DNA of 39,943 nt from Myxococcaceae bacterium. GTDB taxonomy: Bacteria; Myxococcota; Myxococcia; Myxococcales; Myxococcaceae. The notes beneath the pieces were generated by a model. The model was not told the origin of the DNA. It saw nothing but the letters and a program-made list of their open reading frames with translations, and did not search any database. The position numbers and the translations under genes are program-made. The DNA is taken from positions 1 through 39,943 of the forward strand of contig JAIBBQ010000036.1 of assembly GCA_019694595.1 (NCBI GenBank), given 5' to 3'. Below, in pieces: positions 1 to 36,489 of this stretch; position 1 is the first letter of the stretch; every line of letters starts with the position of its first letter.

Positions 1-624
1 GAGGTGGCCGCGCCCAGGGCACCTGCGCCCCCCGCGACCGGGTTCGGCTTCGGCCTGGGCGCCTTCTTCGGCGGGCGGCTGATCGGCGGCGGCGCGCCGC
101 TGGTGGTGGGCGGCGGGCTCGAGCTCGCCGCGGGCGACACCGCGCAGCAGCTGCGCCCCTTCCTCTCGGTGCTGGGCGAATACCACCCGGCCTTCGAGCG
201 CACGCTCGACCTGGTGGCGCTGCGCACCCAGTCGCTGTCCTTCCGGCTGGTGCCGGGGCTCTCGGTGCTGCGCGGCGAGCGCTGGCGGCTGGACGCGGGC
301 CTGGGCGCGGGCGCCGACGTGTTCCTCAGCTCGACGAGCTCCGCGGAGCTGCCGGCGGGCCGGCTGTCGGGGCCGCGCGCCGACGCGTCGCCGGTGCTCA
401 CCGCGCTCGTGCAGTTCCACCTGGCCATCGCCGAGCGCTTCGACCTGCGCCTCGCCTTCACGCTCGACGCCGACCTGCAGCCGCCGCGCTACGTGGCGCA
501 GCTCGGCCCCACCCGCGAGGAGCTCTTCTCTCCGTGGCGGGTGCGGCCGTCGCTCACCCTGGGCTTCGGGGTCGACCCCTTCGGACCCGCGCCGTACGCG
601 GGCCTGCCGGAGGCGACGCCGTGA
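1..624 (+). CDS. Envelope-type hypothetical protein, 5' end outside window
   Basis: The frame is open from the first base, so the true start probably lies upstream; a GTG at position 4 is the first possible start inside the window. The visible 207 residues are rich in Gly, Leu, Ala and Arg. Short alternating hydrophobic stretches and repeated Gly-Leu/Gly-Phe pairs (for example LGAGADVF and LTLGFGVDPF) resemble outer-membrane beta-strands. The C-terminus ends in an expected strand followed by a short Pro-rich tail. The stop codon overlaps the GTG start of the next lipoprotein gene by 4 bases, so the two are probably translationally coupled. I recognise no family; an outer-membrane or periplasmic barrel-like role is inference from composition only. 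Confidence 0.6.
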   Translation, partial: EVAAPRAPAPPATGFGFGLGAFFGGRLIGGGAPLVVGGGLELAAGDTAQQLRPFLSVLGEYHPAFERTLDLVALRTQSLSFRLVPGLSVLRGERWRLDAGLGAGADVFLSSTSSAELPAGRLSGPRADASPVLTALVQFHLAIAERFDLRLAFTLDADLQPPRYVAQLGPTREELFSPWRVRPSLTLGFGVDPFGPAPYAGLPEATP

Positions 625-1172
625 GGGCCTTGATGGTCGCGGCGGTGCTGGTGCTGGGCGCGTGCGGCCCACGGGACATCCTGGTGGCGCAGGCCGACAT
701 GCCCGACGGCGGGCGGCCGATGCACGACGAGCCGTGCACGCTCGACTCCGAGTGCCGGCCGATGGACTACTGCGAGCGCAGCGACTGCACCGCGGTGAGC
801 GGGCGCTGCCGGCCGCGGCCGCTCTTCTGCGACGGCGCGGCGAGCCCGGTGTGCGGCTGCAACGGCGTCACCTACTGGAACGACTGCGTGCGGCGCGCGG
901 CGGGGCAGAGCCTGAGCGGCGACGGCGAGTGCACCGCGGGAGCGACCTGCGGCGGCGGCCAGGGCTGCCCGGACCCGCGCGCCTCGTGCAACCTGCTGGT
1001 GGACGAGGCGTCGAGCTGCGGCCGGGCGACGGTGGGCCGCTGCTGGGGCCTGCCGCGGGAATGCCCGCCGGGGAGCCCGGGCGGCACCTTCAGCCCCTGC
1101 AGTGGCGGGGGAATGTGCGTGTCGTCGTGCGACGCCATCCGCTCCGGACAGGCGCACGCGCGCTGTCAGTGA
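621..1172 (+). CDS. Lipoprotein with Kazal-like protease-inhibitor domain
   Basis: The GTG at 621 overlaps the preceding stop (GTGA) and yields a short type II signal peptide ending LVLGAC, with lipidated Cys at residue 15; an ATG at 633 would cut the signal too short. The mature part is Cys-rich. Around residues 75-102 the sequence PVCGCNGVTYWNDC followed by a Gly and Cys matches the Kazal signature (C-x-C-N-G-x-T-Y-x-N-x-C). A second Cys-rich segment follows. Kazal domains bind and block serine proteases, so an envelope-anchored inhibitor, either self-protective or against predator or prey proteases, is plausible. Such lipoproteins are common in myxobacteria. The target protease cannot be inferred. 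Confidence 0.82.
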   Translation: MRALMVAAVLVLGACGPRDILVAQADMPDGGRPMHDEPCTLDSECRPMDYCERSDCTAVSGRCRPRPLFCDGAASPVCGCNGVTYWNDCVRRAAGQSLSGDGECTAGATCGGGQGCPDPRASCNLLVDEASSCGRATVGRCWGLPRECPPGSPGGTFSPCSGGGMCVSSCDAIRSGQAHARCQ

Positions 1173-1201
1173 TCGCTTTTCGCCCTGGCCACACACCAGA
1201 G

Positions 1202-1228
1202 CGTTCGAGAGGGGCGGCCTCTCGAACG
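1202..1228. promoter_or_regulatory. Perfect 11-bp inverted repeat, 5-nt loop
   Basis: CGTTCGAGAGG (1202-1212) and CCTCTCGAACG (1218-1228) are exact complements separated by GGCGG. The hairpin lies 29 bp after the Kazal-like gene and ends 13 bp before the GTG start of the next lipoprotein, close to its ribosome-binding position. No T-run follows, so it is a poor intrinsic terminator. An operator, or an RNA hairpin that modulates translation, is at least as likely. Confidence 0.55.
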
Positions 1229-1241
1229 AAAGCGAGCACAC

Positions 1242-1985
1242 GTGAAGACCTTCAGGCATCCCATCCTCCTCGGCAGTCTGCTGGCGGCAGCCTGCGCCGG
1301 CACCGACAGCCTCACCACGGCGCTGACGGCCACCACCACCGACGCGCTCCTCCAGACGGCCCAGTGTTCGAAGGAAGGGTTCGACGCCGCGGCCAAGGCC
1401 TGCTTCGACGCCTTCGACACCTGCAAGGCGTCGGCGAACGCCGACGTCGAGGCCTGCCGCACCACCCTCCACGCCTGCCTCCCTCCGCCTCCGCAGCGCC
1501 CGCAGGGGCTGCCCGGCGAAGGCGGCGGCGGCAACTGCGGCCCCGGTGGGCGCGGCGGTCACGGCGACGGCGGCGTGGGTGACGGCGACGGCGACCACCA
1601 CGGCGGCGCGCGGCCCGAGGGCGGCGGCGACCACGGCGGTCGCGGCCCGGGCGGTCCTCCGCCGGGCGGCGCCGACGGCGGCGTGCGCCCCGAAGGCGGC
1701 GGTCGCGGCAACCGGCCGTTGCCGGAGAACGCCGAGGTCCAGGCCTGCCACGACGCGCTCGCCACCTGCCTCGCGGCGACCGGCGCCGATGAAGCGGCCT
1801 GCCGCGCCACCGAGCACGACTGCGTGCACGCGGCCTTCGCGGCGGCCTTCCAGGCGGAGTGCGACGCGGCGGCCACCACCTGCGCCTCGAGCAGCTCGGC
1901 CGACTGCGCCCGCATCACCGCGCGCTGCGCCCAGGGCATCGACGGGCCGAAGGGCGCCGACGGCGGCACCGCCTGCGCGAACTGA
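1242..1985 (+). CDS. Lipoprotein with three CX6C helical repeats and Gly/Asp-rich linker
   Basis: GTG start with a typical lipobox (LLAAAC, Cys18). The mature protein carries three spaced Cys modules: C54-x6-C61-x10-C72-x6-C79, C169-x6-C176-x10-C187-x6-C194 and C207-x6-C214-x7-C222-x6-C229. Residues between them are Ala-rich and helical, which suggests antiparallel helix pairs stapled by disulfides. Repeats 1 and 2 are separated by about 75 residues of Gly/Asp/His/Pro low complexity, probably a flexible linker. The logic resembles CHCH (CX9C) proteins but with a different spacing. I do not recognise the family. A small acidic gene starts 13 bp downstream, probably in the same transcript. Confidence 0.8.
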   Translation: MKTFRHPILLGSLLAAACAGTDSLTTALTATTTDALLQTAQCSKEGFDAAAKACFDAFDTCKASANADVEACRTTLHACLPPPPQRPQGLPGEGGGGNCGPGGRGGHGDGGVGDGDGDHHGGARPEGGGDHGGRGPGGPPPGGADGGVRPEGGGRGNRPLPENAEVQACHDALATCLAATGADEAACRATEHDCVHAAFAAAFQAECDAAATTCASSSSADCARITARCAQGIDGPKGADGGTACAN

Positions 1986-1998
1986 AAAGGCGCTCGCC

Positions 1999-2172
1999 AT
2001 GACCACGCGCCCCGAAGACGAGGAGCAGGTTCCCACCCGGTTGCCGCAGCGCCTCGACCGGGAACGCGCCAGGCGGCTGTTGCGACTCGCGCTGGCCAGC
2101 CTGAAGGACGAGCCGCAGTCCTGGTCGAAGCCCCGGCCTCCGGTCCCCGACGAAGCGTTCGAGGACGACTGA
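1999..2172 (+). CDS. Small charged protein, 57 aa
   Basis: ATG at 1999 is preceded by AAGG (1987-1990) at a reasonable distance and lies 13 bp after the CX6C-repeat lipoprotein, so co-transcription is likely. The product is soluble with no signal peptide. Acidic ends flank a central Arg/Leu-rich amphipathic segment (around residues 18-36, LDRERARRLLRLALASL). A Trp- and Pro-containing stretch and a terminal EDD follow. A strong terminator sits about 60 bp downstream, closing the unit. No family is recognised. It might bind the partner lipoprotein's regulator or nucleic acid, but nothing in the sequence proves this. Confidence 0.6.
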   Translation: MTTRPEDEEQVPTRLPQRLDRERARRLLRLALASLKDEPQSWSKPRPPVPDEAFEDD

Positions 2173-2232
2173 GGTGAAGCACCCGTAGCCCTGAAGCTCA
2201 CCGCCGCTCCACACGGTGGTTCGAGCGCGCCG

Positions 2233-2276
2233 GCCTCCCAGGGGACATCCCCCCTCCTGGGAGGCCGTCGTCTTTT
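2233..2276 (+). terminator. Rho-independent terminator
   Basis: GGCCTCCCAGG (2233-2243) pairs exactly with CCTGGGAGGCC (2257-2267). The inner GGGG/CCCC bases extend the stem, and a T-rich stretch (GTCTTTTCT) follows on the plus strand. It ends the lipoprotein plus small-protein unit. The minus-strand side lacks a T-run, so it is directional. Confidence 0.8.
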
Positions 2277-2294
2277 CTCGTGCCGTCGCTGCCT

Positions 2295-2720
2295 TCAGCC
2301 CTTGGTCGAGCCGCGCAGCAGCGTGGCCGCGGAGATGACCGGCCCGTCGGGCGCTGCGGCCGCGGGGGCCGCGGGAGCGAACGCCCGGAAGGCCTGGCTC
2401 GCGCGCTCTTGTGACCTGGCGAGCTCCTCGCGCTGTTCCTCGCGCACCTCGAGCACGCCCTGGCTGGCGCCGCGGGCCGCGAGCGAGGTCTCGAGGGTGC
2501 GGGCGAGCTGCGCGGCCGACTCCTGTTCCCCGCGTTGGGCGAGCAGCGCGACGAGCTGACTCAGCTGATGGACGAGCCCCAGCACCGCCGCCTCGTCAGC
2601 CAGCGTGCGGGCGATGGTCCCGCGGACGGTGTCGAGCGCCCCCGCTTTCCAGCCCGTGGGGGTGGTGCTCGCGAGCAGGTGGACCAGCAGCGCTTCGGCG
2701 TCGCCGGCCGCCGCGCTCAG
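2295..2720 (-). CDS. Helical hypothetical protein, start unclear
   Basis: The frame runs on from the 3' end of the L,D-transpeptidase-like gene. No ATG, GTG or TTG lies near the junction. The position giving a 4-base overlap with the upstream stop is a CTG (CTGA, 2720), which would give 141 residues. The next ordinary start, a GTG inside the AAVLGLVHQL stretch, would give about 96 residues. The protein is predicted mostly helical: a Leu/Gln/Glu-rich middle (LVHQLSQLVALLAQRGEQES), a charged VREEQREELARSQERA coiled-coil-like stretch and an Ala/Pro-rich tail. There is no signal peptide and no family I recognise. Tight linkage suggests joint expression with the upstream gene. Confidence 0.5.
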   Translation of the reverse strand: MSAAAGDAEALLVHLLASTTPTGWKAGALDTVRGTIARTLADEAAVLGLVHQLSQLVALLAQRGEQESAAQLARTLETSLAARGASQGVLEVREEQREELARSQERASQAFRAFAPAAPAAAAPDGPVISAATLLRGSTKG

Positions 2721-3649
2721 GGGAGCCCCCGCGGCTTGCCTTCCACCACGGTGACGTTGATGGCGCCCGGCGCGTGGCGGATGTCGCTCCAGAAGCGCGA
2801 CCACTCGCCGGGAGTGAAGGTGAAGCAGCCCTGGCTCCAGGTGTTGGTGGGGCCGCCCTTGTGGAAGAGGAAGACGTCGCCGCCCTGCTCGACCTTGTGC
2901 TCGGTGAAGCGGCCGTCGTGGTTGCGGTCGCGCTCGACCAGCACGCCGTGGCGCGGGCGCAGACACGGGTCCCCGTTGGAGCGCTGGCTCACGCCGAAGT
3001 CGTACGAGCCCGTCTTGACCCGGCCCAGGGTGGTGCCGTTGCGCATCGACTCGTTGGGCTCGGTGTTGAAGTGCGTGTACAGCTTCACGTGGTGGTGGCC
3101 CGCGCTGTCGCGCCACACCATCGCCAGGGTGTCGTTGTAGCGGCCCCGCCCTCCGTTGGCGCGGGTCGAGTCGGGGGTGCGGAAGGCGACGAGGTTGCGC
3201 TGGTTGGCGCCGGTGCGGAAGTGGCCGCCGTGCGCGCGGGTGAGCGCCGCGAGGTACCGGTACTGCGCCTCGGTCCCCGACGGGAAGCGGCCGGATCCGC
3301 TGGCCGGAGCGTGGACCGGAGGGCGAACACCGGGCGCCGCGGGCGCCGCAGGGTGGTGGGCGACGTGCGCGACGTGGGCCAGGTGCGCCTGGTGGGTGGA
3401 GCGGGCGGCGAGCGCTTCGGTGTGCAGGGTGGCGGCCTCGGCCGCGGTGAGCACGCCGTCGGCCGGGCGGTGGTGGGCGCGCTCCCAGTCCTTCAGCGCG
3501 CCGAGCGTGAGCGGCCCGAAGTAGCCCTTGGCGGAGATGCTCGGGTCGATGAAGCGCAGCGCCCGGAGGTCGTTCTGGAAGTCGCGGACGTCGTTGCCGC
3601 CATCTCCGAGACGGAGCGTGCGGCGCGCAGCCACCGAAGCGTTCGACAT
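2717..3649 (-). CDS. Peptidoglycan-binding protein with L,D-transpeptidase-like domain
   Basis: ATG at 3649 is preceded on the minus strand by GGGGAG at good spacing, so the longer frame upstream is not used. The 310-residue product starts with a peptidoglycan-binding-1 type module (DVRDFQNDLRALRFI, then GYFGPLTLGALKDWE). An Ala/His/Pro linker follows, then a catalytic-looking domain. Its end has FLFHKGG, eight residues, then SQGCFTF, like the His and S-x-G-C nucleophile motif of YkuD/L,D-transpeptidases, though the His-to-Cys spacing is shorter than in classic members. A Ca-loop-like DRNHDGRF lies just before. No signal peptide is visible. A role in peptidoglycan crosslinking or trimming is likely; the exact reaction is uncertain. 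Confidence 0.72.
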   Translation of the reverse strand: MSNASVAARRTLRLGDGGNDVRDFQNDLRALRFIDPSISAKGYFGPLTLGALKDWERAHHRPADGVLTAAEAATLHTEALAARSTHQAHLAHVAHVAHHPAAPAAPGVRPPVHAPASGSGRFPSGTEAQYRYLAALTRAHGGHFRTGANQRNLVAFRTPDSTRANGGRGRYNDTLAMVWRDSAGHHHVKLYTHFNTEPNESMRNGTTLGRVKTGSYDFGVSQRSNGDPCLRPRHGVLVERDRNHDGRFTEHKVEQGGDVFLFHKGGPTNTWSQGCFTFTPGEWSRFWSDIRHAPGAINVTVVEGKPRGLP

Positions 3650-3923
3650 GAGCAGCTCCCCTTGTGAGGCCAACGACAACGAGGTTGTCGGCCCGCGGAG
3701 GTGTCGGGTGTCTTCACAACCTGTCAGGTCGTCTTCCAGATGGGAGGAATGGCCCTTCGGTCGCCCGGACACCGAGTCGTTTCAGCAGGCTGCACCTTTT
3801 CGAGCGGCCACCGGGCGAGTCGATCGACGTGCGTCAGGTCGTGTACGGCGATGTGAGCCCATTCCTCGCACTCGGGACACTCGTCGGGCGAACCAATTCT
3901 GGTTCCCAGCAAGGAACTCATTC
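3650..3923. other. Divergent intergenic region with three small dyads
   Basis: This 274-bp stretch separates two divergent genes. It holds CGACAAC-GAG-GTTGTCG (3674-3690), 24 bp upstream of the minus-strand start; ACCTG-T-CAGGT (3719-3729); and GAACCA-ATTC-TGGTTC (3890-3905), near the plus-strand start. Open frames inside it lack plausible starts or composition. It probably carries both promoters, but no clean -35/-10 pair is evident. Confidence 0.5.
3890..3905. promoter_or_regulatory. Candidate operator near lipoprotein start
   Basis: A perfect 6-bp inverted repeat with a 4-nt spacer, GAACCA-ATTC-TGGTTC, ends just before the AAGGA ribosome-binding sequence (3911-3915) of the gene starting at 3924. 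This placement would let a bound repressor or an RNA hairpin block initiation. Confidence 0.35.
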
Positions 3924-4232
3924 GTGATTCGGAATCTTCTCTGCGGTTTCGCCGTCGTGGCGTCCCTCGGTCTCACCGGCTGCGGCCGGCCGGAAGGTGC
4001 AGAGGAGGCCCTCGCGGCGGATCCGGCCTCCGACGCCACCACCGATTCGAAGGAACTCGCGGGCAGCAAGTGCAGCGCGAGTGCCCCGCTGGTGCATCAA
4101 CTGACGTCGCGACGAACGTTCCGGGCGCGCGCCTTCAGGCGCGTGACCCGGGGCTACTTCTCGACGCTGAGGTGCCAGTCCACCACCGTCATCGGCGCCT
4201 TCTCGGCGTTGTGGCGGTTGTGGGCGTTGTAG
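3924..4232 (+). CDS. Short lipoprotein, possibly truncated
   Basis: GTG at 3924 follows AAGGA by 8 bases. The first 20 residues form a clear lipoprotein signal (hydrophobic FAVVASLGLTGC, Cys20). About 45 acidic, Ala/Asp/Glu-rich residues follow, up to a KCSASAPLV segment. From there on the frame becomes Arg-rich and its last 79 bases run antisense over the 3' end of the gene at 4154-5290. That composition break suggests the natural protein ended sooner or continued in another frame, so this may be the stub of a longer lipoprotein. Function unknown. Confidence 0.5.
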   Translation: MIRNLLCGFAVVASLGLTGCGRPEGAEEALAADPASDATTDSKELAGSKCSASAPLVHQLTSRRTFRARAFRRVTRGYFSTLRCQSTTVIGAFSALWRLWAL

Positions 4233-5290
4233 AGGTCGAGGATGAAGGAGTTGCCCACCCACCCGAGCACCTTCACGCGCTCGTCCTTGAGCCAGCGCTT
4301 GAAGTCGCCCCACGAGAGGTTGGGCTTGCCGTCGGTGAGGTGGCCGCGCTCCTTCTCGAGCGTGCCGATGAACTCCTCGAACTGCGCCCCGAGCGCATCG
4401 CGGCGAGCGAGGACGGCGGAGACGAGCTCGTCGCCGGTGCGGTACTGACCGAAGGAAGCCCCGTCCTTGAACTGGGCCTCGATGAAGGGCGCGAGCGCGG
4501 CCTTCACTTCGCCGTCGGACAGCCCCTGGATCCGCTTCACCGCGTCGCGCATGGCGCCGAAGTCGACGTTCACGTCGCCGTGCACGTAGGACATGAAGAG
4601 CAGGTTCTGCGCGGTGGGAATCTTCCACTTGTACGTCTTGTAGCGGTCGAGCTCGCCCTGCGACTTCTCGTAGTCGTGGAGCGTGAGGTCCCAGTCCTTG
4701 TTGAAGGCGACCTGGGTGTCCTGCTTCTTCAGGTCGCGGATGGCGTACTGATCCGTCTTCATGTCGTAGTTCCCGAGGAACTCCGACCACACCGCGTCGA
4801 CGACCACCTGGCGCGCCTCGGCCTCGGTCCACGCCTTGGGGTCGTTGCCCAGCTCCCGGCCGTTGCTGCCCACGCGCGGGCGCACCCAGCCTTCGATGGC
4901 CTGGTGGTCGTTGATGGGCATGTGCACCCGGGCGCCGTCGGCGAGCGCGGGCTCGTCGGCGGCACGGCGCAGGGTGTTGGCGAAGTCGTCGCGCGCGTAG
5001 AAGTGGCGCGGGTCGGGGTTGGGCTTGAAGGTGAACTTCTTGGTCTCGAGCTTCCCGTCCTTGTCCGGGACCTGGGCCTCGACGACGAACTTGGCGCTGG
5101 TGCCGCCGGGCTCGGCGTCGGGCACGCGGGTGAAGGTGAGGGCCTCGAGCTGCGCGTCGGTGTAGTCGGGCAGCTCCTTGCGCAGCGCCTTGCGGAACTC
5201 CGCGTACACGTCGGCTCCACCCTGCTTCGCTTTGCCAGCGTCCACGTCGGCCGGCTGCTTGGGCGACGGCCCCCCACCCTGGATTTTCAT
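4154..5290 (-). CDS. Orphan cytosolic-type protein, weakly kinase-like
   Basis: The 378-residue product starts with a low-complexity MKIQGGGPSPKQP tail and has no signal peptide or membrane segment. It reads as a well-formed globular protein. Residues 173-182 (GNYDMKTDQY) and 197-204 (NKDWDLTL) recall the catalytic Asp/Asn and metal-binding Asp motifs of atypical HipA- or phosphatidylinositol-kinase-like folds (G-N-x-D followed by a hydrophobic-D segment). This resemblance is by eye and weak. The C-terminus contains a conserved-looking YNAHNRHN stretch. It is transcribed alone, divergent from the GMC oxidoreductase gene 60 bp away. No confident function. Confidence 0.68.
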   Translation of the reverse strand: MKIQGGGPSPKQPADVDAGKAKQGGADVYAEFRKALRKELPDYTDAQLEALTFTRVPDAEPGGTSAKFVVEAQVPDKDGKLETKKFTFKPNPDPRHFYARDDFANTLRRAADEPALADGARVHMPINDHQAIEGWVRPRVGSNGRELGNDPKAWTEAEARQVVVDAVWSEFLGNYDMKTDQYAIRDLKKQDTQVAFNKDWDLTLHDYEKSQGELDRYKTYKWKIPTAQNLLFMSYVHGDVNVDFGAMRDAVKRIQGLSDGEVKAALAPFIEAQFKDGASFGQYRTGDELVSAVLARRDALGAQFEEFIGTLEKERGHLTDGKPNLSWGDFKRWLKDERVKVLGWVGNSFILDLYNAHNRHNAEKAPMTVVDWHLSVEK

Positions 5291-7030: not shown

Positions 7031-8641
7031 GTGGACGTGGGTGACAGCCTCGAAAGCCTGAAGCGGTTGGAGTCGCTGCGCGCGCAGCTGCCCCCGGCTG
7101 AGCCGGTGAGTACCCGTCACACCCTGCTGTCGCGGCCGACGCGGGAGGTGCTTGCTGGGCCGGTCAATCAAACGCATTCTGCCGCCCTCGTGCTGAAGGA
7201 GCCTTCCCCAACCGAGCCGGTGGCCTTCGGCCGGTACGAGCTGATTCGCCGCATCGGTGCGGGCGGCATGGGTGAGGTCTTCCTGGCGCGCGAGCCGTCG
7301 CCGCTGGGGCCGCGGGCGTGCGTGCTGAAGAAGGTGCTGCCGAGCCTGCAGGAGAACCGGGCCTTCGTGGGGCGCTTCCTCGACGAGGCGCGGGTGGTGG
7401 TGAAGCTCAAGCACCCCAACATCGCGCGCGTGTACGCGATGGGCGACGTGGCGGGGGAGTACTTCCTCACCATGGAGTACGTGCAGGGCAAGACGGTCTC
7501 GCGCTTCATGCGCCGGCTCCGCGAGCGCAAGAAGCAGCTGTCGGTGGGGCTGGCGCTCTTCCTCGGCGAGCGGGTGTGCGAGGGGCTGCAGTACGCGCAC
7601 GACGCGGTGGACGACAACGGCGCGCCGCTGCAGCTGGTGCACCGCGACCTGTCGCCGGCGAACGTGTGCATCAGCTACCGCGGCGAAGTGAAGATCATCG
7701 ACTTCGGCGCCGCGCAGTCGACGCTCAAGGAAGAGCAGACCGCGCCGCGCGTGGTCATCGGCAACCTGACGTACATGGCGCCGGAGCAGGCGAAGAAGCA
7801 GCTCGTCGACCGCCGCGCCGACGTCTACTCGTGCGGCGTGATGCTCTGGGAGCTGCTCGCCTGGCACGCGCTGCCGCAGAAGGGCGACCCCATCGAGCGC
7901 TGGCGCAAGGCCGCCAACCCGTCGTGGGAAGCGCCGTCGCTGTACCACGGCCGCATTCCGCCCGAGGTCGACGCGGTCATCCTGAAGGCGCTCGACAAGG
8001 ACCCGGCGCGCCGCTTCGCGTCTGCCGCCGAGCTCGGCGCGGCGCTCAAGCGGGTGCGCGAGGCGGTGGCGCCGCAGGCGAGCGAGAAGGAACTCGGCAC
8101 GCTGTTGTCGGAGGCCTTCGAGAAGGAGAAGGCGTCGGAAGACGAGGTGCTCCGCGAGAGCATCGGCACGCCCATCGACACCACGCCCACCGACCGCACC
8201 AAGCGGCTCAACTTCGTGCCGCCCACCGCGCTGGCCTTCGAGCACACCGCGGTGCTGGCCGACTTCGTGCCGCCCGACGTCACCCCCGCGGCGAAGCCGC
8301 AGCTCGCCGACGCCGCCGCGCCCACCATTCGCGCCTCGGGCCCTCGCCACGAGGTGACGGTCACCGCGGCGGACGACGGCACCCCGACGCCGTCGGTCGA
8401 CCCGCGCAAGCACCGGGTGAACGAGCGCCGCACCAGCTTCGGCGTCACCTTCCACGAGGCGACCGAGCCGCGCATCGAGCCGTCGCTCATCCAGGAAATC
8501 GAGGCGCTGGAGCCGTACGAGCAGACCGCGCCCGACGCCGAGCGGCCGCCGTCGTACCGCGGCCTGTTCCTGTTCGCGGGGGTGTTCCTCGCCGCCATGG
8601 GCGCCGGCTTCCTCGCCATCTTGCTCTGGGCGAGCCGGTAG
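7031..8641 (+). CDS. Membrane-anchored Ser/Thr protein kinase
   Basis: GTG at 7031 follows a purine-rich AGGGGTGAG; a GTG at 7037 is an alternative start. After a 65-residue N-terminal tail, a Hanks-type kinase domain has GAGGMGEVF (Gly loop, about 76-84), the Lys100/101 pair, HRDLSPANV (204-212) and IDFG (223-226). It also has the GNLTYMAPEQ activation segment. The HRD loop has Ser where Lys is usual (HRDLKP), seen in many myxobacterial kinases; it may be active but should be tested. A roughly 200-residue disordered Thr/Pro/Asp-rich region follows, and a single C-terminal helix (GLFLFAGVFLAAMGAGFLAILLW) anchors it with nearly no exterior domain. It is monocistronic, and its targets are unknown. 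Confidence 0.9.
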   Translation: MDVGDSLESLKRLESLRAQLPPAEPVSTRHTLLSRPTREVLAGPVNQTHSAALVLKEPSPTEPVAFGRYELIRRIGAGGMGEVFLAREPSPLGPRACVLKKVLPSLQENRAFVGRFLDEARVVVKLKHPNIARVYAMGDVAGEYFLTMEYVQGKTVSRFMRRLRERKKQLSVGLALFLGERVCEGLQYAHDAVDDNGAPLQLVHRDLSPANVCISYRGEVKIIDFGAAQSTLKEEQTAPRVVIGNLTYMAPEQAKKQLVDRRADVYSCGVMLWELLAWHALPQKGDPIERWRKAANPSWEAPSLYHGRIPPEVDAVILKALDKDPARRFASAAELGAALKRVREAVAPQASEKELGTLLSEAFEKEKASEDEVLRESIGTPIDTTPTDRTKRLNFVPPTALAFEHTAVLADFVPPDVTPAAKPQLADAAAPTIRASGPRHEVTVTAADDGTPTPSVDPRKHRVNERRTSFGVTFHEATEPRIEPSLIQEIEALEPYEQTAPDAERPPSYRGLFLFAGVFLAAMGAGFLAILLWASR

Positions 8642-21661: not shown

Positions 21662-22760
21662 CGCCACCCACCATACCGGGACATTCGGCCGCGTGCGCCG
21701 CCCACGGCGTCGCGGTGCGCGCGGCGAGCACCGTGGCGTCGCCCACCAGCGGCGCCAGGAGGTAGTTCCGGCCGCCGAAGGGCACGGTGATGCCCGCGGC
21801 CTCCGCGGTGCGCAGGAGCCGCTCGAGCGTCGCGCGGTCGCCCCGGGCCGCGGCGCCGGCCATGGCGAAGCCGGTGCCCGCGGGCGAGAGGCCGAAGACG
21901 AGCGGCCCCGAGTCGACGTCGCCTTCGCCGTCGACGCCGCGGGGGTACTCGCGCCAGGCGGTGGCGCCCAGCGGGAGCTCGACCTCGAAGGCCTGGCGGG
22001 CGAGCGCGTCCTGTTCGCTGGCGACGCGCGGCTCCACCAGGGGCAGGTAGAGCCCGTTCCACGCCGCGCCACTGGCGCGCACGCCGCCTTCGGGCCGGAA
22101 GAGGAAGAGTCCGGTGGCACGGTCCTTCGGCCAGCGGGCGAGCACCGCGCGCGCGACGGGGGCGTCGGCGCCCGCGCAGCGCTCGGCGAGCGCCACCGCG
22201 GCGAGCGAGGCGGCGTTGTCCGGAATCCAGGTGAGGCCGGGGTACGTCTCGATGAGGCCGCTCTCGGCGGCCTGGTGCCGGCGCGCCAGGGCCTCGCCCA
22301 CGCGCTCGAGCGTGGCCCGGTGACGCGTGCCCCCGAGCGCGCACTCCGCGCCGAGCACCAGCCCGAGGTGACCCAGGTAGCCGGCGTGGCCGGCTTCCCC
22401 CGCGAGCGTCTCCAGCGCGTCGTGGCCGTGGGCCCGGGTGTCGAAGGCGCGCGCTTCGGGGGAGAGCGCCCGGTCGGCGAGCTGCTCCACCAGGCGCAAG
22501 GCCTGGTCCCGCGGCAGCGCGTGGCGGAAGACGAGGTTGGTCGCCGCGAGCGCGGTGGCGGAGACCGTCACCAGCCGCCACTCGTCGGAGAAGACGTCGT
22601 CCGGGCCCGCGCCGGGGAGCTGCTCCCGGGCGAAGCGCCGCTCGAGCGCGTGCAGCCGTGCCAGGGCATCGGCGTCGGACGCCGTCACCGCGGACAGCTG
22701 GGCGGCGCGGAGCGCGAGGAGACAGCCAGCGACGACGAGGACCCGGCGGAGGTGGCGCAT
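21606..22760 (-). CDS. Exported alpha/alpha-toroid-like protein
   Basis: ATG at 22760 gives 384 residues with an N-terminal export signal (RRVLVVAGCLLALRAAQLS); VVAGC could also act as a lipobox but the h-region is short. The rest alternates helical Ala/Leu/Arg segments with Gly-rich turns. Recurrent motifs are WIPDNAASLAAVALAER and DSGPLVFGLSPAGTGFAMAGA, which recall alpha/alpha-toroid folds such as the linalool dehydratase/isomerase-like group. Resemblance is by eye. The start codon lies 3 bases after a long hairpin. The 3' end overlaps the next lipoprotein gene. Function not assigned. Confidence 0.75.
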   Translation of the reverse strand: MRHLRRVLVVAGCLLALRAAQLSAVTASDADALARLHALERRFAREQLPGAGPDDVFSDEWRLVTVSATALAATNLVFRHALPRDQALRLVEQLADRALSPEARAFDTRAHGHDALETLAGEAGHAGYLGHLGLVLGAECALGGTRHRATLERVGEALARRHQAAESGLIETYPGLTWIPDNAASLAAVALAERCAGADAPVARAVLARWPKDRATGLFLFRPEGGVRASGAAWNGLYLPLVEPRVASEQDALARQAFEVELPLGATAWREYPRGVDGEGDVDSGPLVFGLSPAGTGFAMAGAAARGDRATLERLLRTAEAAGITVPFGGRNYLLAPLVGDATVLAARTATPWAAHAAECPGMVGGDASLALDDGGGVAGRVSR

Positions 22761-22763
22761 GCA

Positions 22764-22800
22764 GCGATGAAACGCCCGCTTCGAGGGGCGGGTTCATCGC
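22764..22800. promoter_or_regulatory. Long hairpin abutting a start codon
   Basis: GCGATGAA (22764-22771) pairs exactly with TTCATCGC (22793-22800), and inner CGCCC (22773-22777) pairs with GGGCG (22786-22790). On the minus strand only TGC separates it from the ATG at 22760, leaving no exposed ribosome-binding sequence. It could terminate the upstream gene or limit translation. There is no T-run. Confidence 0.55.
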
Positions 22801-22850
22801 GGCCTGGCCAGCGGTCGAAGCGGGGCGCCGAGCGGTCGGCGCTCGGGGGC

Positions 22851-24452
22851 TCAGCGGCCGGGCACCGCGCCGAGCATCTCCTGGAGCGAGCGGTATTCCT
22901 GCTCGACGCCGACGAACTTCACCTTGCCGCCGCAGTGGGGGCAGGGGAAGTCGGTGGGCATCATCGCGCGCTCGAGCTTGCGCTCCAGCTGGGTGTTGGT
23001 GCCGCAGGTGCCGCACTCGTGGGGCGAGAGCACCGAGCGCACCTTCATGCCGCCGACCATGCCGTCGACCTGGGCGGCGAGCCGCACCAGCGACTCGGGC
23101 GCGGCGACGAGCTCCACCGGGCGGCCCTTGAGGCCGCGCACGAAGTTGAGCCAGCGCACCACGCCGGGCGAGGTGAAGCCCACCACGCCGCGCATGTCGA
23201 GGCGGGCGGCGGTGGTCTCGGGCAGGGTGGTGCGCTCGTCGATCCACCCCTTGAGCTCCAGCACCTGCAGGCCCTTGGAGGAGACCTTCACCGTGGCCGC
23301 GCTGCCGGTGGGCCGCGGCTCCAGCGCGCGCGAAGGCTGCGGGTGCACCTTGGACGGCGACGGCGCGGGCGGCGGGGTCCGTGCCGGAGGCCGCACCGCG
23401 GCGCCGGGCTTGGGCGCCAGCGCGGTGGGCGGCGGCGCGAGCGCGGGCATCTCCTGCGTCAGCGAGACCTCGGGGCTCAGCCAGAAGACGTTGAGCGAGC
23501 GGCTCACCTGGCGGAACTCGCCGGCGTTCTCCACCCGCAGGTACCAGCCGGCGAGCACCTCGGTGCGCTCGTGCTCGCGGATGTTGAAGACGAGCTGGTG
23601 CACCCGCTTCACCGCCATCGCGAGGCCCAGGCCCGCGCCCGACGACTTGGTCTCGATGGCCTGCTTCGACGGGCTGAAGCTCTTGGCGACGTACTGGTTC
23701 ACCCGCTCGCGGGACAACGAGCCGAAGGGGTCGGACACGCCGAACATGAAGCGCTGGCCGTCGCAGGCCCAGGTGACCTCGCCGTACTCCGCGGGCTCCA
23801 GCACCAGCTTGGGGTCGGGCCCCAGGTGCTCGTACTTGGGCTCGCCCTTGGGCGTCCGCGGGGCGTGCACGATGGCGTTGACCATCAGCTCGTCGGCCAC
23901 CGTCACCATGTCGGGGACCACCGACGACGGCACCTCGAGGTCGGTGAGGAAGCCTTCGAGCTCGTGGGTGAGGTCGTACTTGTCGCTCATCGAGCGCAGC
24001 ACGTGGCGGTGAATGGGCACGCCCCAGATGCCGACGTACTTCTCGACGCCGAAGATGTCCTTGCGCAGCACCTTCTGTGCGGTGACCAGCAGCTCGCGCT
24101 CGTCGAGCAGCGGGAAGACGGCGCGAATGGCGCCGTGCTTGGCGATGAGGTTCGCCACCTCGTAGGTCTGCAGGAGCTTGAAGAGCGGCTCCTTGTTCTC
24201 GCCGAGCGACAGCAAGATGGTCGGCCCGCGCGGAGGCGACTTGCGCATCCACTGGCCGAGCGCGTCCTGCACGGTGCTGGGGTCGACGGTGTCCGCGTCG
24301 ATGATGAGCAGCCCCGGCTTGTCGGCGGAGATGACGCGCTCCACGTCCATCGGCGTCTCGCAGAAACGCAGCTCCATGCCGCCCGAGTAGAGCGTGCGCG
24401 CCACCTGCCGGCGCGTCTGGAGCTGGCGCGTCATGAGAATGGTGATGGTCAT
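22851..24452 (-). CDS. Receiver-like/HATPase/STAS/zinc-ribbon regulator
   Basis: The 533-residue protein combines four parts. Residues 1-130 resemble a response receiver domain with a D52 at the end of strand 3, but the usual N-terminal acidic pair is absent (MTRQ). Residues of about 160-315 are HATPase_c-like: N-box DELMVNAIVHA (187-197), VSDPFGS (239-245) and SSGAGLGLAMA (270-280). A Pro-rich linker (336-384) leads to a STAS-like fold (387-465, LELKGWIDERTTL and MRGVVGFTSPG). A zinc ribbon follows (C480-x2-C483, C504-x2-C507). The design suggests a single-chain partner-switch regulator (anti-sigma/anti-anti-sigma type). Its target is unknown. Confidence 0.82.
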   Translation of the reverse strand: MTITILMTRQLQTRRQVARTLYSGGMELRFCETPMDVERVISADKPGLLIIDADTVDPSTVQDALGQWMRKSPPRGPTILLSLGENKEPLFKLLQTYEVANLIAKHGAIRAVFPLLDERELLVTAQKVLRKDIFGVEKYVGIWGVPIHRHVLRSMSDKYDLTHELEGFLTDLEVPSSVVPDMVTVADELMVNAIVHAPRTPKGEPKYEHLGPDPKLVLEPAEYGEVTWACDGQRFMFGVSDPFGSLSRERVNQYVAKSFSPSKQAIETKSSGAGLGLAMAVKRVHQLVFNIREHERTEVLAGWYLRVENAGEFRQVSRSLNVFWLSPEVSLTQEMPALAPPPTALAPKPGAAVRPPARTPPPAPSPSKVHPQPSRALEPRPTGSAATVKVSSKGLQVLELKGWIDERTTLPETTAARLDMRGVVGFTSPGVVRWLNFVRGLKGRPVELVAAPESLVRLAAQVDGMVGGMKVRSVLSPHECGTCGTNTQLERKLERAMMPTDFPCPHCGGKVKFVGVEQEYRSLQEMLGAVPGR

Positions 24453-24501: not shown

Positions 24502-25560
24502 CTAGAAGACCTGGGGGTACAGCGGAGTGCCGTCGGCGATCGCCTCTTCGCCGCCCTGGGTGCTGTCGAGGAGCACGCAGGGGGTCGAGAGCTTCTGCTG
24601 GATGTAGCCGAGGTCCTTGCGGCCCTCGGTGAAGAACCAGGCGATGTGCGCGCCCTGCCGTTCCAGCCGGTCGAGCTCGCGCACCTTGAAGTTCGGGGTG
24701 CTCATGCGCGGGAGCGGCTTGCTCAGCACGTGGCTCGCGTCGGCGTCGGGCAGCTTGAAGCGCTTGAGCTGGGCGATGGTGCCGGCCTCGGTCTCCTGGG
24801 CGCGCCCGGTGAGGTAGATGACCTCGGCGCCGGCCTTCTTGGCGTCCTGCGCGAGCTTGATGATGGTGGGCATCGGCAAGTCGTGCACCAGGTTGTCGCT
24901 CTTCCAGAACTCGGCCTTCCAGTAGCGCTGGAAGCTCGTCACCTCGGCCTCGCTCAGGCCCAGCGAGCGGGCGAGCTCTTCACCGTCGTGGCCGACCTCG
25001 TTGAGCGCCACCCCGTCGAAGAGGTGGGTGCCGCGCTGGGCGTCGTAGGCGTGGGCGATGGCGAGGGTGCGGGCGCGGGTGTCGGCCACGGTGTTGTCGA
25101 GGTCGAAGACCACCACCGCGCGCTCGCCGCGGGCCACGCGGGCCTTCACGTCGTCGAGCGCCTGGGCGCAGAAGCGCTTGCCGTCGACGGTGGCCACGCC
25201 GCGCAGGTAGTCGAAGTCGGGGCGCAGGCTCGCCACCAGGGCCTTGGAGTCGTCGGGCGTGGCGAGGACGAGGTCGGGGCCCGCGGCCCTCTGGGCGGCC
25301 TCGAAGGCGAGGCGCTCGCCGGCAGCCACCACCGCGTTCACCGTGGGGTTGCGCGACCCGGTCGCGGCGAAGGCGTCTTTCAGGTTGTCGAGGACCAGGC
25401 GGGCGGCGCCGGTGAGCTTGTTCGCGGCGCGGTCGAGCTCTTCGCGGCTCAGGCGGCCGTCGGTGCCCGCGAGGGCGGCGAGCGCCGGGCGCAGCACGTC
25501 GCGCGACCAGGTCGTGGCGAGCTGATCCGGCGTCGGGTGTCGAGCGAGTCGGGCGGCCAT
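24502..25560 (-). CDS. HAD-family phosphatase with N-terminal helical domain
   Basis: The 352-residue product has a helical N-terminal domain (1-145) and then a HAD core: DLDNT (153-157, nucleophile Asp and general acid Asp), LTGR (250-253), and a Lys-containing loop before FFTEGRKD. The cap is inserted between motifs I and II, as in acid-phosphatase-like members. No signal peptide is evident. It likely hydrolyses a phosphate ester. The substrate is not predictable. It lies 49 bp from the preceding regulator gene, with the same orientation, and its transcript may extend into that gene. Confidence 0.83.
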   Translation of the reverse strand: MAARLARHPTPDQLATTWSRDVLRPALAALAGTDGRLSREELDRAANKLTGAARLVLDNLKDAFAATGSRNPTVNAVVAAGERLAFEAAQRAAGPDLVLATPDDSKALVASLRPDFDYLRGVATVDGKRFCAQALDDVKARVARGERAVVVFDLDNTVADTRARTLAIAHAYDAQRGTHLFDGVALNEVGHDGEELARSLGLSEAEVTSFQRYWKAEFWKSDNLVHDLPMPTIIKLAQDAKKAGAEVIYLTGRAQETEAGTIAQLKRFKLPDADASHVLSKPLPRMSTPNFKVRELDRLERQGAHIAWFFTEGRKDLGYIQQKLSTPCVLLDSTQGGEEAIADGTPLYPQVF

Positions 25561-25626: not shown

Positions 25627-27030
25627 TCAGGCGGCGGCGTCGAGGGCCCGGCCGGCGTCGGTGCGGCTCGGGGCCGGGTACGCCAGCGACAGGCTGCTCT
25701 TGCGCCAGTAGCCCTGGGCGGCGTGTGCGAAGACCTGCTCCAACCGGCGCAAACCGGTGGCCGCCACCGAGGCGATTCGCGACGGCAGTGTCCACGGGCG
25801 CTTCTCGCGCAATGCACTGCGCAACAGCTCGGCGGCGGTGGCGCCCATCACCCGGGTGTACTCGGTGACGAAGGGCGACAGGCGCAGGTCCTCGCACGAG
25901 AGGATGCCCATGGAGGCGAGGCGGCCGCGGTCGCCCTGCTGCCAGTAGCGGAAGATTCCGGCCTGCAGGGCTGCGCTGCCTTCGTCCTGGGCGCGGAAGA
26001 TCTCGTACAGCGCCGCAGTGAAGGACTCGCGCAGGCGCACGAAGGCGACGCGCTCGCGCTGGTAGTGGAGCACCGCCTCGTCGCCGAAGCCGTGCTCGCC
26101 GACCGAGGACGCGAGCAGCAGCGCGTCGAAGGTGGCGCCCGTCATGCCGGTGGCGGTGAGGGGGTGGCTGCAGCCGCCGGCCTCGCCGATGAGCGCCGCG
26201 CCCGCGGCCACGCACTCCAGCGTGGAGATGGCGTGGTTGGCGCAGCCCTCGAGGGGCCGCTCGGCGAGCGAGCGCAGCATCGCGGAGCGCAGCGGCTCGG
26301 GCACCGCCTCGGCGTACTGGGTGGTGACGAACTGCTTGAGCGCGTCCTTCCCCTTGGCAGCGCCCCAGGGCACGTCGATGCACATGCGCACGCGGCCGTC
26401 GCCGTACGGGTAGGCGAGCACCGGGCCCGGCGCGCCGAGGAACACGTGGCCGTGGGCAGGCACCGGGAGCACCGGCCCTTCGACGCCCACCGCGACGGTG
26501 TACGAGAGCAGCGACTGCTCGGGCGAGAAGCCGAGCAGCGTGCGGACCTTGGAGGCGCGCCCGTCGGCGCCGATGGTGAGCGCCGCGCGGACCTCGTGGC
26601 CCTGGGCGGTGCGCACGCCGCGCACCCGGCCGCTCTCCACCAGCAGGGCGTCGACCCGCTGCGAGGTGCGCAGCTCGACGCCGGGCAGCGCGGCCACGGC
26701 TTCGCGCAGCGCGCTCACCATCGCGTGGTGGTCGATGCCCAGCCCCTCTCCGGCGGATTGGGGGTAGGGCAGCTGGAGCGGGGCGGAGCCGGGACCCGGG
26801 GAGACCGCGAAGCCTTCGACGCGCACCGCGCCGGCGCGCAGCAGGGGCGCCTTGAGGCCCAGCCCCTCGAGCGCCCGGACGCCGCGAGGGTGGATCAGCT
26901 CGCCACGGAAGCGGGGGTCGAAGGTGGGGTGCGACTCCAGCACACAGACCCGGGCGCCCCGCGCCGCGAAGGCGGCTGCAGCGGTGAGGCCCGCGAAACC
27001 GGCGCCGACGATGACCACGTCGCTCGACAT
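25627..27030 (-). CDS. Squalene monooxygenase (epoxidase)
   Basis: ATG at 27030 places the dinucleotide-binding GAGFAG at residues 9-14; upstream residues in the open frame are excluded. The 467-residue flavoprotein has GADGRASKVR (154-163) and GEAGGCSHPLTATGM (282-296), which matches the GD-x-hPLTG-x-GM segment of squalene epoxidases and related FAD monooxygenases. Its divergent neighbour is squalene synthase, with an oxidosqualene cyclase 3 kb away, so the reaction is probably squalene to 2,3-oxidosqualene, needing O2 and an electron donor. The C-terminus has an amphipathic stretch, typical of membrane-associated forms. Assignment rests on motif plus context. Confidence 0.84.
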   Translation of the reverse strand: MSSDVVIVGAGFAGLTAAAAFAARGARVCVLESHPTFDPRFRGELIHPRGVRALEGLGLKAPLLRAGAVRVEGFAVSPGPGSAPLQLPYPQSAGEGLGIDHHAMVSALREAVAALPGVELRTSQRVDALLVESGRVRGVRTAQGHEVRAALTIGADGRASKVRTLLGFSPEQSLLSYTVAVGVEGPVLPVPAHGHVFLGAPGPVLAYPYGDGRVRMCIDVPWGAAKGKDALKQFVTTQYAEAVPEPLRSAMLRSLAERPLEGCANHAISTLECVAAGAALIGEAGGCSHPLTATGMTGATFDALLLASSVGEHGFGDEAVLHYQRERVAFVRLRESFTAALYEIFRAQDEGSAALQAGIFRYWQQGDRGRLASMGILSCEDLRLSPFVTEYTRVMGATAAELLRSALREKRPWTLPSRIASVAATGLRRLEQVFAHAAQGYWRKSSLSLAYPAPSRTDAGRALDAAA

Positions 27031-27086
27031 GGGCGCGCGCGATAGCGCACCGCCCGGCCTCGATGAAGGGCCCATTTCGGGAGGCG

Positions 27087-27100
27087 CTGACAGGTGTCAG
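27087..27100. promoter_or_regulatory. Dyad in divergent sterol promoter region
   Basis: CTGACA-GG-TGTCAG is an inverted repeat of two 6-bp arms. It lies midway between the squalene monooxygenase start (27030) and the squalene synthase start (27142), so one protein bound here could control both. No clean -35/-10 pair is visible around it. Confidence 0.45.
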
Positions 27101-27141
27101 TCGCGGGGCGTCGGTGGGGCATGGCAAGGCCCGGGAGAGTC

Positions 27142-28065
27142 GTGTACGCGGCCCACCGTCCCATGGCCGACCTCGACGACCTGTTGCTCAAGACCAGCCG
27201 CACCTTCGCGCTGGCCATTCCGCTGTTGCCCGAGCCGACCCGCGAGGCGGTGTCGCTGGCGTACCTGCTGTTCCGCATCGCGGACACCTTCGAAGACGCG
27301 ACCGAGTGGCCGCGCGAGCGGCGGCTCAAGGCGCTGGAAGACTTCGCCCGCGCGGTGGAGACGCCCGACGACCTGGCGGCGCTCACCCGCGGCTGGCTCG
27401 ACGAGCCGCCGACCAAGCACGAGGGGTACCTCGAGCTCCTGCGCGAGACGCCCGCGGTGGTCGCGCGGATGAACACGCTGGCGCCCGGCGTGCGGCGGAT
27501 CCTGATCCACCACACCCAGCGCACCTCGCGCGGCATGGCGGACGTGGTGGCCAAGGCCGACGCCCAGGGCCACTTCCGGCTGCAGACGCTGCAGGACCTG
27601 AAGGACTACTGCTACGTGGTGGCGGGCATCGTGGGCGAGCTGCTCACCGAGGTCTTCGTGCACGACGCGCCGTCGCTCCAGGCGGTGAAGGCCGAGCTCG
27701 AGGCGCGCATGGTGGCCTTCGGGGAAGGGCTGCAGCTGGTGAACATCGTCAAGGACGCCAGCGACGACGCGAAGGACGGGCGCGCGTACCTGCCCAAGTC
27801 GGTGGAGCGGCGCGAGGTGTTCGCGCTCGCCAACGCGGACCTCGACCGGGCGGCGGAGTACGTGGAGGCGCTGCAGCGCGGCGGGGCGCCGAGGGGCTTC
27901 CTGGCCTTCACCGCGCTCCCGGTGATGCTGGCGCGGGCGGCGCTGCGCGCGGTGGAGCAGCGTGGACCGGGCGCCAAGGTGCCGCGCGACCACGTGACGT
28001 CGCTGTACCAGACGCTGGAGAGCACGCTGGATCAGGGCGGCTCGCTGCGCAGCGCCACGGCCTGA
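27142..28065 (+). CDS. Squalene synthase
   Basis: GTG at 27142 follows GGGAG by 4 bases; ATG at 27163 or 27121 and GTG at 27094 are alternatives. The 307-residue product has the SQS/phytoene-synthase fold. It has LLLKTSRTFALAIPLLP at the N-terminus, first Asp motif DTFED (48-52), YCYVVAGIVGELLTEVF (157-173) and the second motif NIVKDASDDAKDGRAY (201-216). These point to squalene rather than phytoene synthase, but product identity also rests on context. It condenses two farnesyl diphosphates to squalene with NADPH. The divergent monooxygenase and later cyclase complete a pathway to sterols. A hairpin (28101-28116) without T-run follows. Confidence 0.88.
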   Translation: MYAAHRPMADLDDLLLKTSRTFALAIPLLPEPTREAVSLAYLLFRIADTFEDATEWPRERRLKALEDFARAVETPDDLAALTRGWLDEPPTKHEGYLELLRETPAVVARMNTLAPGVRRILIHHTQRTSRGMADVVAKADAQGHFRLQTLQDLKDYCYVVAGIVGELLTEVFVHDAPSLQAVKAELEARMVAFGEGLQLVNIVKDASDDAKDGRAYLPKSVERREVFALANADLDRAAEYVEALQRGGAPRGFLAFTALPVMLARAALRAVEQRGPGAKVPRDHVTSLYQTLESTLDQGGSLRSATA

Positions 28066-34892: not shown

Positions 34893-35091
34893 GGCGGACT
34901 CCTCGTGGCTGGGTTCGAACTGCGTTGGGCGCCGCGCGGTGGCTGCGGCGTTTCTCGAAATACGAGAGCCCCGCAGGTGGGGTTACCGACGCGCGATGCA
35001 AAGCCCTTTTGCGCGCGGCTGGCGCCGGGTGCCCGCCGGGAGGATGCTGTCCTCCTGGGCCGGCAACCACCGGCATCCACAGGGGGTTTCC

Positions 35092-36489
35092 ATGGCCGAC
35101 TCGAGCACCATCGACACCGGAGCGACCCGGCGCCGCGACAGCACCGAGGTGAGCCCGGTGGTGGAGAGCGGAAGGCGGCTGATGTCCGGAGAGCAGCGCT
35201 ACGACCTGCGCACCACCATCGGGCAGGGCGGCATGGGCCGGGTGCTCGAGGCCTACGACACCCAGTTCTCGCGCGTGGTGGCGGTGAAGGAGCTGCACTC
35301 GGCGAACGCCGACGAGCTCACGCGCGAGCGCTTCGCGCTCGAGGCGCTCATCACCGGAAACCTGGAGCACGCCGGGGTGCCGGCGGTCTACGAGCGCGGC
35401 GTCCGGGCCGACGGCGCGCCCTACTACGTGATGCGCCGCGTGCAGGGGAAGACGCTCGACCAGGCGCTCAAGGAGACCACCACGCTCAAGGAGCGGCTGG
35501 CGCTCGCGGTGGTGGTGCTCAAGGCCGCGCAGACCATGGGCTTCGCGCACTCCCAGGGCGTGGTGCACCGGGACTTGAAGCCCCAGAACATCCTCATCGG
35601 GCAGCACGGCGAGGTCTTCGTGGTCGACTGGGGCCTCGCCAAGGCCCGCGGCGCCGCGGCCCGCATGTCCGCCGAGCACTCCTCGGTGCGCGGGGCGATG
35701 AACGAGACGGTGCAGGGCAGCGTGGTGGGCACGCCGTCGTACATGGCGCCCGAGCAGGCGCGCGGGCAGACCGACGCCCTCGACGAGCGCACCGACGTCT
35801 TCGCCCTGGGCGCGGTGCTCTACCACCTGCTCATGGGAAGGCCGCCCTTCCTGGGTCACGACGTGGAAGGCACGGTGAAGCTGGCCGCCGCCAACCAGGC
35901 GCCGCGCATCGACCAGCGGGTGCCGCCGCCGCTGCGTGCGCTGTGCGAGCGGGCGATGGCCACCGACCCCGGCGCGCGCTTCCGGAACGCCGAGGAGTTC
36001 GCCAACGCCCTGGAGCACTTCGCCTCCGAGTCCTTCCTGCGCTCCTTCTCTCCCATCTCCCTGGTGGCCAACGTCACCAGCGGCGTGATGATGGCGGTGG
36101 GCATCCTCCTGCTGGTGGTCGTCTCGTTCTTCCTGCCACCGACCCTGGCCGTGGGCCCCGCGCTGTGGATGATGGTGTTCCTCGCCGTCACCGGCCTGGT
36201 CATCTCGCTCTTCGAGGAACGCACCCAGGGGCGGCTCAACCTCTGGCCGATGTCGCTCTCCGCGGCGATCGCCAGCTTCCTGGTGGGGTTCACCGGAGCC
36301 GCCGGCCGCGTGGGCAAGGAGATTCCCAGGCTCAACGCCGCCGTGAACAGCGGCCGTGCCCCCGGCGACATCGTGGAAGAGGTCATCGGCTACGGGGTGA
36401 CGCTCATCGTGCTCGGCGGGCTGATGTGCGTGGTGCAGCTGCTCGTCTGGGGCATGGTCCACCGGCGCACCCTGACCCGCCGGAGCTGA
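35092..36489 (+). CDS. Polytopic Ser/Thr protein kinase
   Basis: ATG at 35092 follows AGGGGG by 5 bases. The 465-residue product has a Hanks kinase domain with GQGGMGRV (44-51), VAVKEL with Lys66, HRDLKPQN (159-166) and DWG (179-181) in place of DFG, common in bacterial kinases of this type. After the kinase domain, four hydrophobic segments (about 329-348, 353-373, 387-404 and 433-456) anchor it. Most kinases have one anchor, so the C-terminal domain may itself sense or transport something. Its substrate is unknown. Confidence 0.9.
   Translation: MADSSTIDTGATRRRDSTEVSPVVESGRRLMSGEQRYDLRTTIGQGGMGRVLEAYDTQFSRVVAVKELHSANADELTRERFALEALITGNLEHAGVPAVYERGVRADGAPYYVMRRVQGKTLDQALKETTTLKERLALAVVVLKAAQTMGFAHSQGVVHRDLKPQNILIGQHGEVFVVDWGLAKARGAAARMSAEHSSVRGAMNETVQGSVVGTPSYMAPEQARGQTDALDERTDVFALGAVLYHLLMGRPPFLGHDVEGTVKLAAANQAPRIDQRVPPPLRALCERAMATDPGARFRNAEEFANALEHFASESFLRSFSPISLVANVTSGVMMAVGILLLVVVSFFLPPTLAVGPALWMMVFLAVTGLVISLFEERTQGRLNLWPMSLSAAIASFLVGFTGAAGRVGKEIPRLNAAVNSGRAPGDIVEEVIGYGVTLIVLGGLMCVVQLLVWGMVHRRTLTRRS

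Follow-up and report, generated by a model that had tools for sequence, protein, structure and literature searches.

Gene layout and domain assignment

Does a single gene in this myxobacterial genome combine parts of a partner switch that are normally made as separate proteins, and if so, what might it control? The gene lies within a window of 39,943 nt, by which we mean the whole stretch of DNA analysed (contig JAIBBQ010000036.1 of a Myxococcaceae bacterium). An earlier note, made from the sequence alone, had read it as a receiver, an HATPase, a STAS domain and a zinc ribbon on one chain, and had suggested self-contained control of a sigma factor or other target. The ORF showed a strong coding signal. 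When the proposed domain order was looked for in relatives, the same fused architecture was found in two genomes of the same bacterial family (51 % and 49 % identity, the latter homologue cut by a contig end), so the gene is neither a chance ORF nor a fusion created during assembly. A third genome of this family carried receiver-GHKL only. The features of the gene, with the evidence for each, were as follows.

22851..24452, reverse strand: fused gene, 533 aa, ATG start, stop codon at 22851-22853 (ORF, coding signal, two homologues of the same architecture)
24063..24452, reverse strand: pseudo-receiver, residues 1-130 (canonical spirochaete homologues, model pLDDT, PDB receiver matches)
24426..24431, reverse strand: T8-R9 at the position of the canonical Mg-binding acid pair (aligned to canonical homologue L276/L091)
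24297..24299, reverse strand: D52, at the receiver phospho-acceptor position (alignment)
24036..24062, reverse strand: KDIFGVEKY family signature, residues 131-139, at the receiver/ATPase junction (near-invariant in 41 homologues)
23472..24032, reverse strand: GHKL/RsbW-like ATPase, residues 141-327 (HATPase_c_2, E 8e-4; SpoIIAB/RsbW structure matches)
23877..23891, reverse strand: N-box E188-N192, equivalent to SpoIIAB E46 and N50 (invariant in 41 homologues; alignment)
23721..23732, reverse strand: G1-like box D241-G244 (D and G invariant)
23622..23639, reverse strand: G2 box GAGLGL, residues 272-277 (G274 and G276 invariant)
23295..23456, reverse strand: Pro-rich disordered linker, residues 333-386 (pLDDT <50)
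23040..23285, reverse strand: STAS domain, residues 390-471 (STAS/STAS_2 matches of homologues, STAS-antagonist fold, SpoIIAA alignment)
23169..23171, reverse strand: S428, predicted phospho-acceptor, at SpoIIAA S58 (Ser invariant in 35 STAS-zinc domains; alignment)
22932..23015, reverse strand: zinc ribbon CxxC...CxxC, residues 480-507, with Cys 480, 483, 504 and 507 (near-invariant Cys)

Searched against Pfam on its own, the fused protein matched no receiver, STAS or SpoIIE model and gave only weak zinc ribbons and a sub-threshold HATPase_c_2 hit (19.9 bits against a gathering score of 27.4), and PDB searches with single sequences returned no useful match. Relatives and an AlphaFold2 model of the whole protein, built from 41 alignment rows (mean pLDDT 83.1, pTM 0.80), backed each domain in the order first proposed. 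The model began with a domain of alternating alpha and beta elements, followed by a GHKL domain, the disordered segment at residues 333-386, a STAS-like domain and the ribbon. Comparison with the PDB using Foldseek ranked the receiver-GHKL protein LvrC of Leptospira first, followed by SpoIIAB (matching the GHKL domain with a TM score of 0.77 by target), RsbW and many receivers. The STAS-zinc part, modelled separately, was closest to a Haliangium STAS antagonist (4hyl; probability 1.00, though with an E-value of only 2.8e-3), with SpoIIAA and RsbV ranking below it at modest E-values. Among 35 homologous STAS-zinc domains, Pfam matched STAS in nine and STAS_2 in seven, and all four ribbon cysteines were near-invariant. 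The STAS assignment, like that of the receiver detailed below, therefore stands on both homologue and fold matches. Kinase and STAS-zinc rows were aligned separately, because aligning fused, kinase-only and STAS-only proteins together seemed to misplace the STAS rows. Directly downstream of the gene, at 22758-22806, lies a terminator-like imperfect 23 nt inverted repeat with a 3 nt loop.

Family distribution and gene fusions

Scanning GTDB identified relatives in Myxococcota, Bdellovibrionota, Spirochaetota and Omnitrophota, and in the family alignment the motif KDIFGxEKY was conserved after the receiver. At E<=1e-30 the family was present in 46 of 58 Bdellovibrionota genomes, 42 of 198 from Spirochaetota (the phylum of the Leptospirales and Spirochaetia loci) and two of 285 from Omnitrophota. 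In Myxococcota, 67/195 genomes had matches at E<=1e-20, many of which represent a more distant GHKL paralogue, and one myxobacterial genome alone had 16 at E<=1e-10. None of the models in Pfam or NCBIfam names this architecture, and a full-text literature search of partial coverage found no relevant description of a STAS domain and zinc ribbon together. Within those databases and the literature covered, the receiver-GHKL family with KDIFGxEKY is undescribed; a family that occurs in most Bdellovibrionota genomes searched, and is expanded in some myxobacteria, has no named model. One Bdellovibrionales member (L093:4780-6338) carries an extra N-terminal part that by eye resembles a cNMP-binding domain, followed by a coiled coil, receiver and GHKL domain.

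The STAS-zinc part was frequently found next to the kinase. It adjoined or was fused to the kinase in 23 of 43 surveyed Myxococcota members (20 adjacent, three fused), with the adjacent genes no more than 350 bp away, nearly all of them downstream at no more than 120 bp and some with ATGA overlaps. An adjoining STAS-zinc gene was lacking in roughly half of the Myxococcota members and in almost all from Bdellovibrionota. Many Myxococcaceae instead have the STAS-zinc part at the N-terminus of a large protein, whose gene often follows directly on a GHKL gene; in those scanned (L034, L035 and L040) the C-terminal end was a Ser/Thr kinase. Both Omnitrophota members were kinase-STAS-zinc fusions. 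Mapping these arrangements onto a tree put the Myxococcaceae fusions and the Omnitrophota fusions in different clades and required the label to change at least twice on well-supported branches; one unfused homologue (L199:16968) fell inside the Myxococcota fused clade. The Omnitrophota fusion was apparently independent of that in Myxococcaceae. Kinase and STAS domain have thus been fused on separate occasions and also occur as neighbours, which makes it very probable that they act together and reinforces the idea of partner-switch modules on one chain. Since these parts are encoded side by side by separate genes in relatives from several phyla, the gene appears to be the fused form of a signalling family that has been overlooked.

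Genomic neighbourhoods and candidate targets

Loci were sampled by kinase-family score and their genes called with a custom script, yielding 101 neighbouring proteins in which SpoIIE (8), Pkinase (8), GGDEF (5) and HATPase_c (4) domains recurred (raw counts). The sigma-70 family was absent from the 25 commonest families listed among them, a tally that leaves room for a single case. Operons in Omnitrophota comprised a GAF-SpoIIE protein (with HAMP in one), the fused kinase-STAS-zinc protein and a PAS-GGDEF protein, and two Myxococcota loci showed the gene order kinase, STAS-zinc and PAS-GGDEF. The PAS domain of the linked cyclases contained three invariant cysteines (C54, C63 and C67 in L083) and may sense redox state or a metal. 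These PAS-Cys cyclase genes were located at L083:7127-8209, L082:7223-8209, L088:7175-8197 and L198:3-989 (reverse strand).

No phosphatase for reset, no target partner and no linked diguanylate cyclase adjoined the fused gene. A conserved operon partner was also sought and rejected, as the upstream gene differs between the three genomes: it encodes a HAD phosphatase here, and a GT87 protein and a TonB receptor beside the two homologues. The HAD-family gene, which is acid phosphatase-like and spans 24502-25560, lies 49 bp upstream on the same strand and is absent beside the homologues. A search for a PAS-Cys-GGDEF partner elsewhere in the same genome recovered only GGDEF-domain matches that left the PAS part uncovered. 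The genome does contain a second module (L031, contig C107 of G000, positions 1-5240) encoding a HAMP-SpoIIE phosphatase, a GHKL protein and a large protein headed by STAS-zinc; this last is cut by the contig end, and its relatives carry a Ser/Thr kinase. Elsewhere in the window we observed two Ser/Thr protein kinase genes (7031-8641 and 35044-36489) and a squalene-epoxidase-like FAD monooxygenase gene (25627-28065) beside a divergent squalene/phytoene synthase gene.

These neighbourhoods bear on what the earlier note had proposed about function. Self-contained is too strong a term for this control, because the chain carries no phosphatase and SpoIIE phosphatases recur beside relatives. A sigma-factor target drew no support from gene neighbourhoods, which featured Ser/Thr kinases, SpoIIE phosphatases, diguanylate cyclases and histidine kinases. 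The protein might still be an anti-sigma factor with a built-in antagonist, whose GHKL domain sequesters a sigma factor that the fused STAS domain releases. The GHKL fold is closest to SpoIIAB/RsbW and to LvrC, itself described as a putative Rec-regulated anti-sigma factor (PMC13269768), and Rv1364c, a one-chain GHKL-STAS protein, interacts with SigF in vitro (PMC7693655). Set against the missing sigma-70 family and the recurrence of kinases, phosphatases and diguanylate cyclases among neighbours, we regard this explanation as unlikely. The comparison of loci suggests that the target lies among diguanylate cyclases or Ser/Thr kinases more than sigma factors, and the family offers a direct test case for whether partner switches in these groups steer c-di-GMP or kinase enzymes rather than sigma factors.

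Conserved residues of the kinase and STAS domains

The nucleotide-binding residues whose loss would have undermined the HATPase assignment are present: E188, N192, D241, G244, G274 and G276 were invariant in 41 family members. E188 and N192 paired with E46 and N50 of SpoIIAB, in an alignment that scored E 0.0065 with a low hhalign probability. The G1 box reads DPFG rather than the full DxGxG. In the STAS domain, S428 occupied a column of invariant Ser across the 35 domains and paired with S58 of SpoIIAA, and the preceding residue was T427 where SpoIIAA has Asp.

The incomplete G1 box and T427, together with the degenerate receiver, could indicate a catalytically silent scaffold in which the GHKL domain binds ATP without phosphorylating and the fusion serves as a fixed docking platform. 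A dead kinase would, however, need neither the catalytic Glu equivalent to SpoIIAB E46 nor the acceptor Ser, both of which are invariant family-wide, and we therefore consider this improbable.

A partially degenerate receiver

The N-terminal region was modelled as alternating strands and helices with pLDDT of about 74-96, matched receiver structures in the PDB with TM scores up to 0.87 by target, and was supported as a receiver by the family profile, which also matches receivers, and by Pfam Response_reg matches of spirochaete homologues (E 6e-16 and 3e-10). Alignment showed that D52, S82 and K105 are kept but that T8-R9 replaces the acid pair, leaving the canonical set of acid pair, phospho-Asp, T/S and K incomplete. 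The degeneracy noted earlier is thus confirmed by sequence, but is partial. Each of the three Myxococcaceae fusions has lost the acid pair (T-R, T-T and T-Q), and no histidine kinase was detected adjoining any of them.

All five receiver residues were canonical in each of the 17 surveyed members that adjoin a histidine kinase, all spirochaete, and in just one of 70 members that do not (Fisher p 4e-17, kinship ignored). As the 17 form one clade, this amounts to one evolutionary contrast rather than 17, and the p-value overstates independence. The family presents a natural series from a working receiver with a histidine kinase to a pseudo-receiver without one. That the fused protein is a working two-component response regulator under an unlinked histidine kinase, as the retained D52, S82 and K105 and the histidine kinases beside spirochaete relatives might imply, is very improbable given the loss of the acid pair in 3/3 Myxococcaceae fusions and the lack of any detected adjoining histidine kinase.

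Proposed mechanism

We consider it probable that the gene encodes a fused partner switch, in which the kinase acts on its own STAS domain, a separate phosphatase resets it and STAS-zinc binds a target. The RsbW-like GHKL domain would bind ATP and phosphorylate S428, in cis or in trans within a dimer. The phosphorylation state would set whether STAS-zinc is held by its own kinase or free for a downstream protein, and reset would fall to a SpoIIE-type phosphatase such as the HAMP-SpoIIE protein of the C107 module. Classical phosphotransfer would no longer involve the receiver, whose role is probably dimerisation or docking. More broadly, and tentatively, the phylum-crossing receiver-GHKL kinases and their dedicated STAS-zinc substrates may constitute a partner-switch class with second-messenger or Ser/Thr-kinase outputs rather than sigma factors, in which the lineage of the fused gene would have evolved a pseudo-receiver and a kinase-substrate fusion.

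Comparison with known systems

The best structural match, LvrC (PDB 9qih), likewise has a receiver followed by a Bergerat/GHKL domain. It differs in having a canonical receiver phosphorylated by LvrB and in carrying neither STAS nor zinc ribbon on its chain (PMC13269768), and KDIFGxEKY is not visible in its aligned stretch; the fused gene, by comparison, has no acid pair and no linked histidine kinase. The fusion of kinase and substrate is not unprecedented, since Rv1364c of Mycobacterium tuberculosis combines a GHKL kinase and a STAS antagonist on one chain and is reported to autophosphorylate its own antagonist domain (PMC7693655, PMC12143880). Its chain also includes PAS and PP2C phosphatase domains, with no receiver or zinc ribbon described (PMC7693655, PMC12143880), whereas the fused protein carries no PP2C phosphatase. 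SypE of Vibrio fischeri is similarly a response regulator of several domains whose serine kinase activity is directed at a STAS protein, but it is a dual serine kinase/phosphatase, its substrate SypA is a separate protein and no zinc ribbon is reported (PMC8256260, PMC3610818).

SpoIIAB/SpoIIAA and RsbW/RsbV share the kinase and STAS folds and the key Glu/Asn and Ser residues, but are separate proteins with a sigma-factor target and without a receiver or zinc ribbon. In SiaABCD and HsbA/HsbD of Pseudomonas and BgrV/BgrR of Sinorhizobium, a STAS or STAS-like switch controlled by kinase and phosphatase acts on a diguanylate cyclase (PMC8457831, PMC5085249). Their parts are separate proteins, whereas ours are fused and have no linked cyclase; a cyclase is present in the two Myxococcota loci and in Omnitrophota, whose relatives resemble the Sia and Hsb systems in that phosphatase, kinase-STAS and cyclase genes share an operon.
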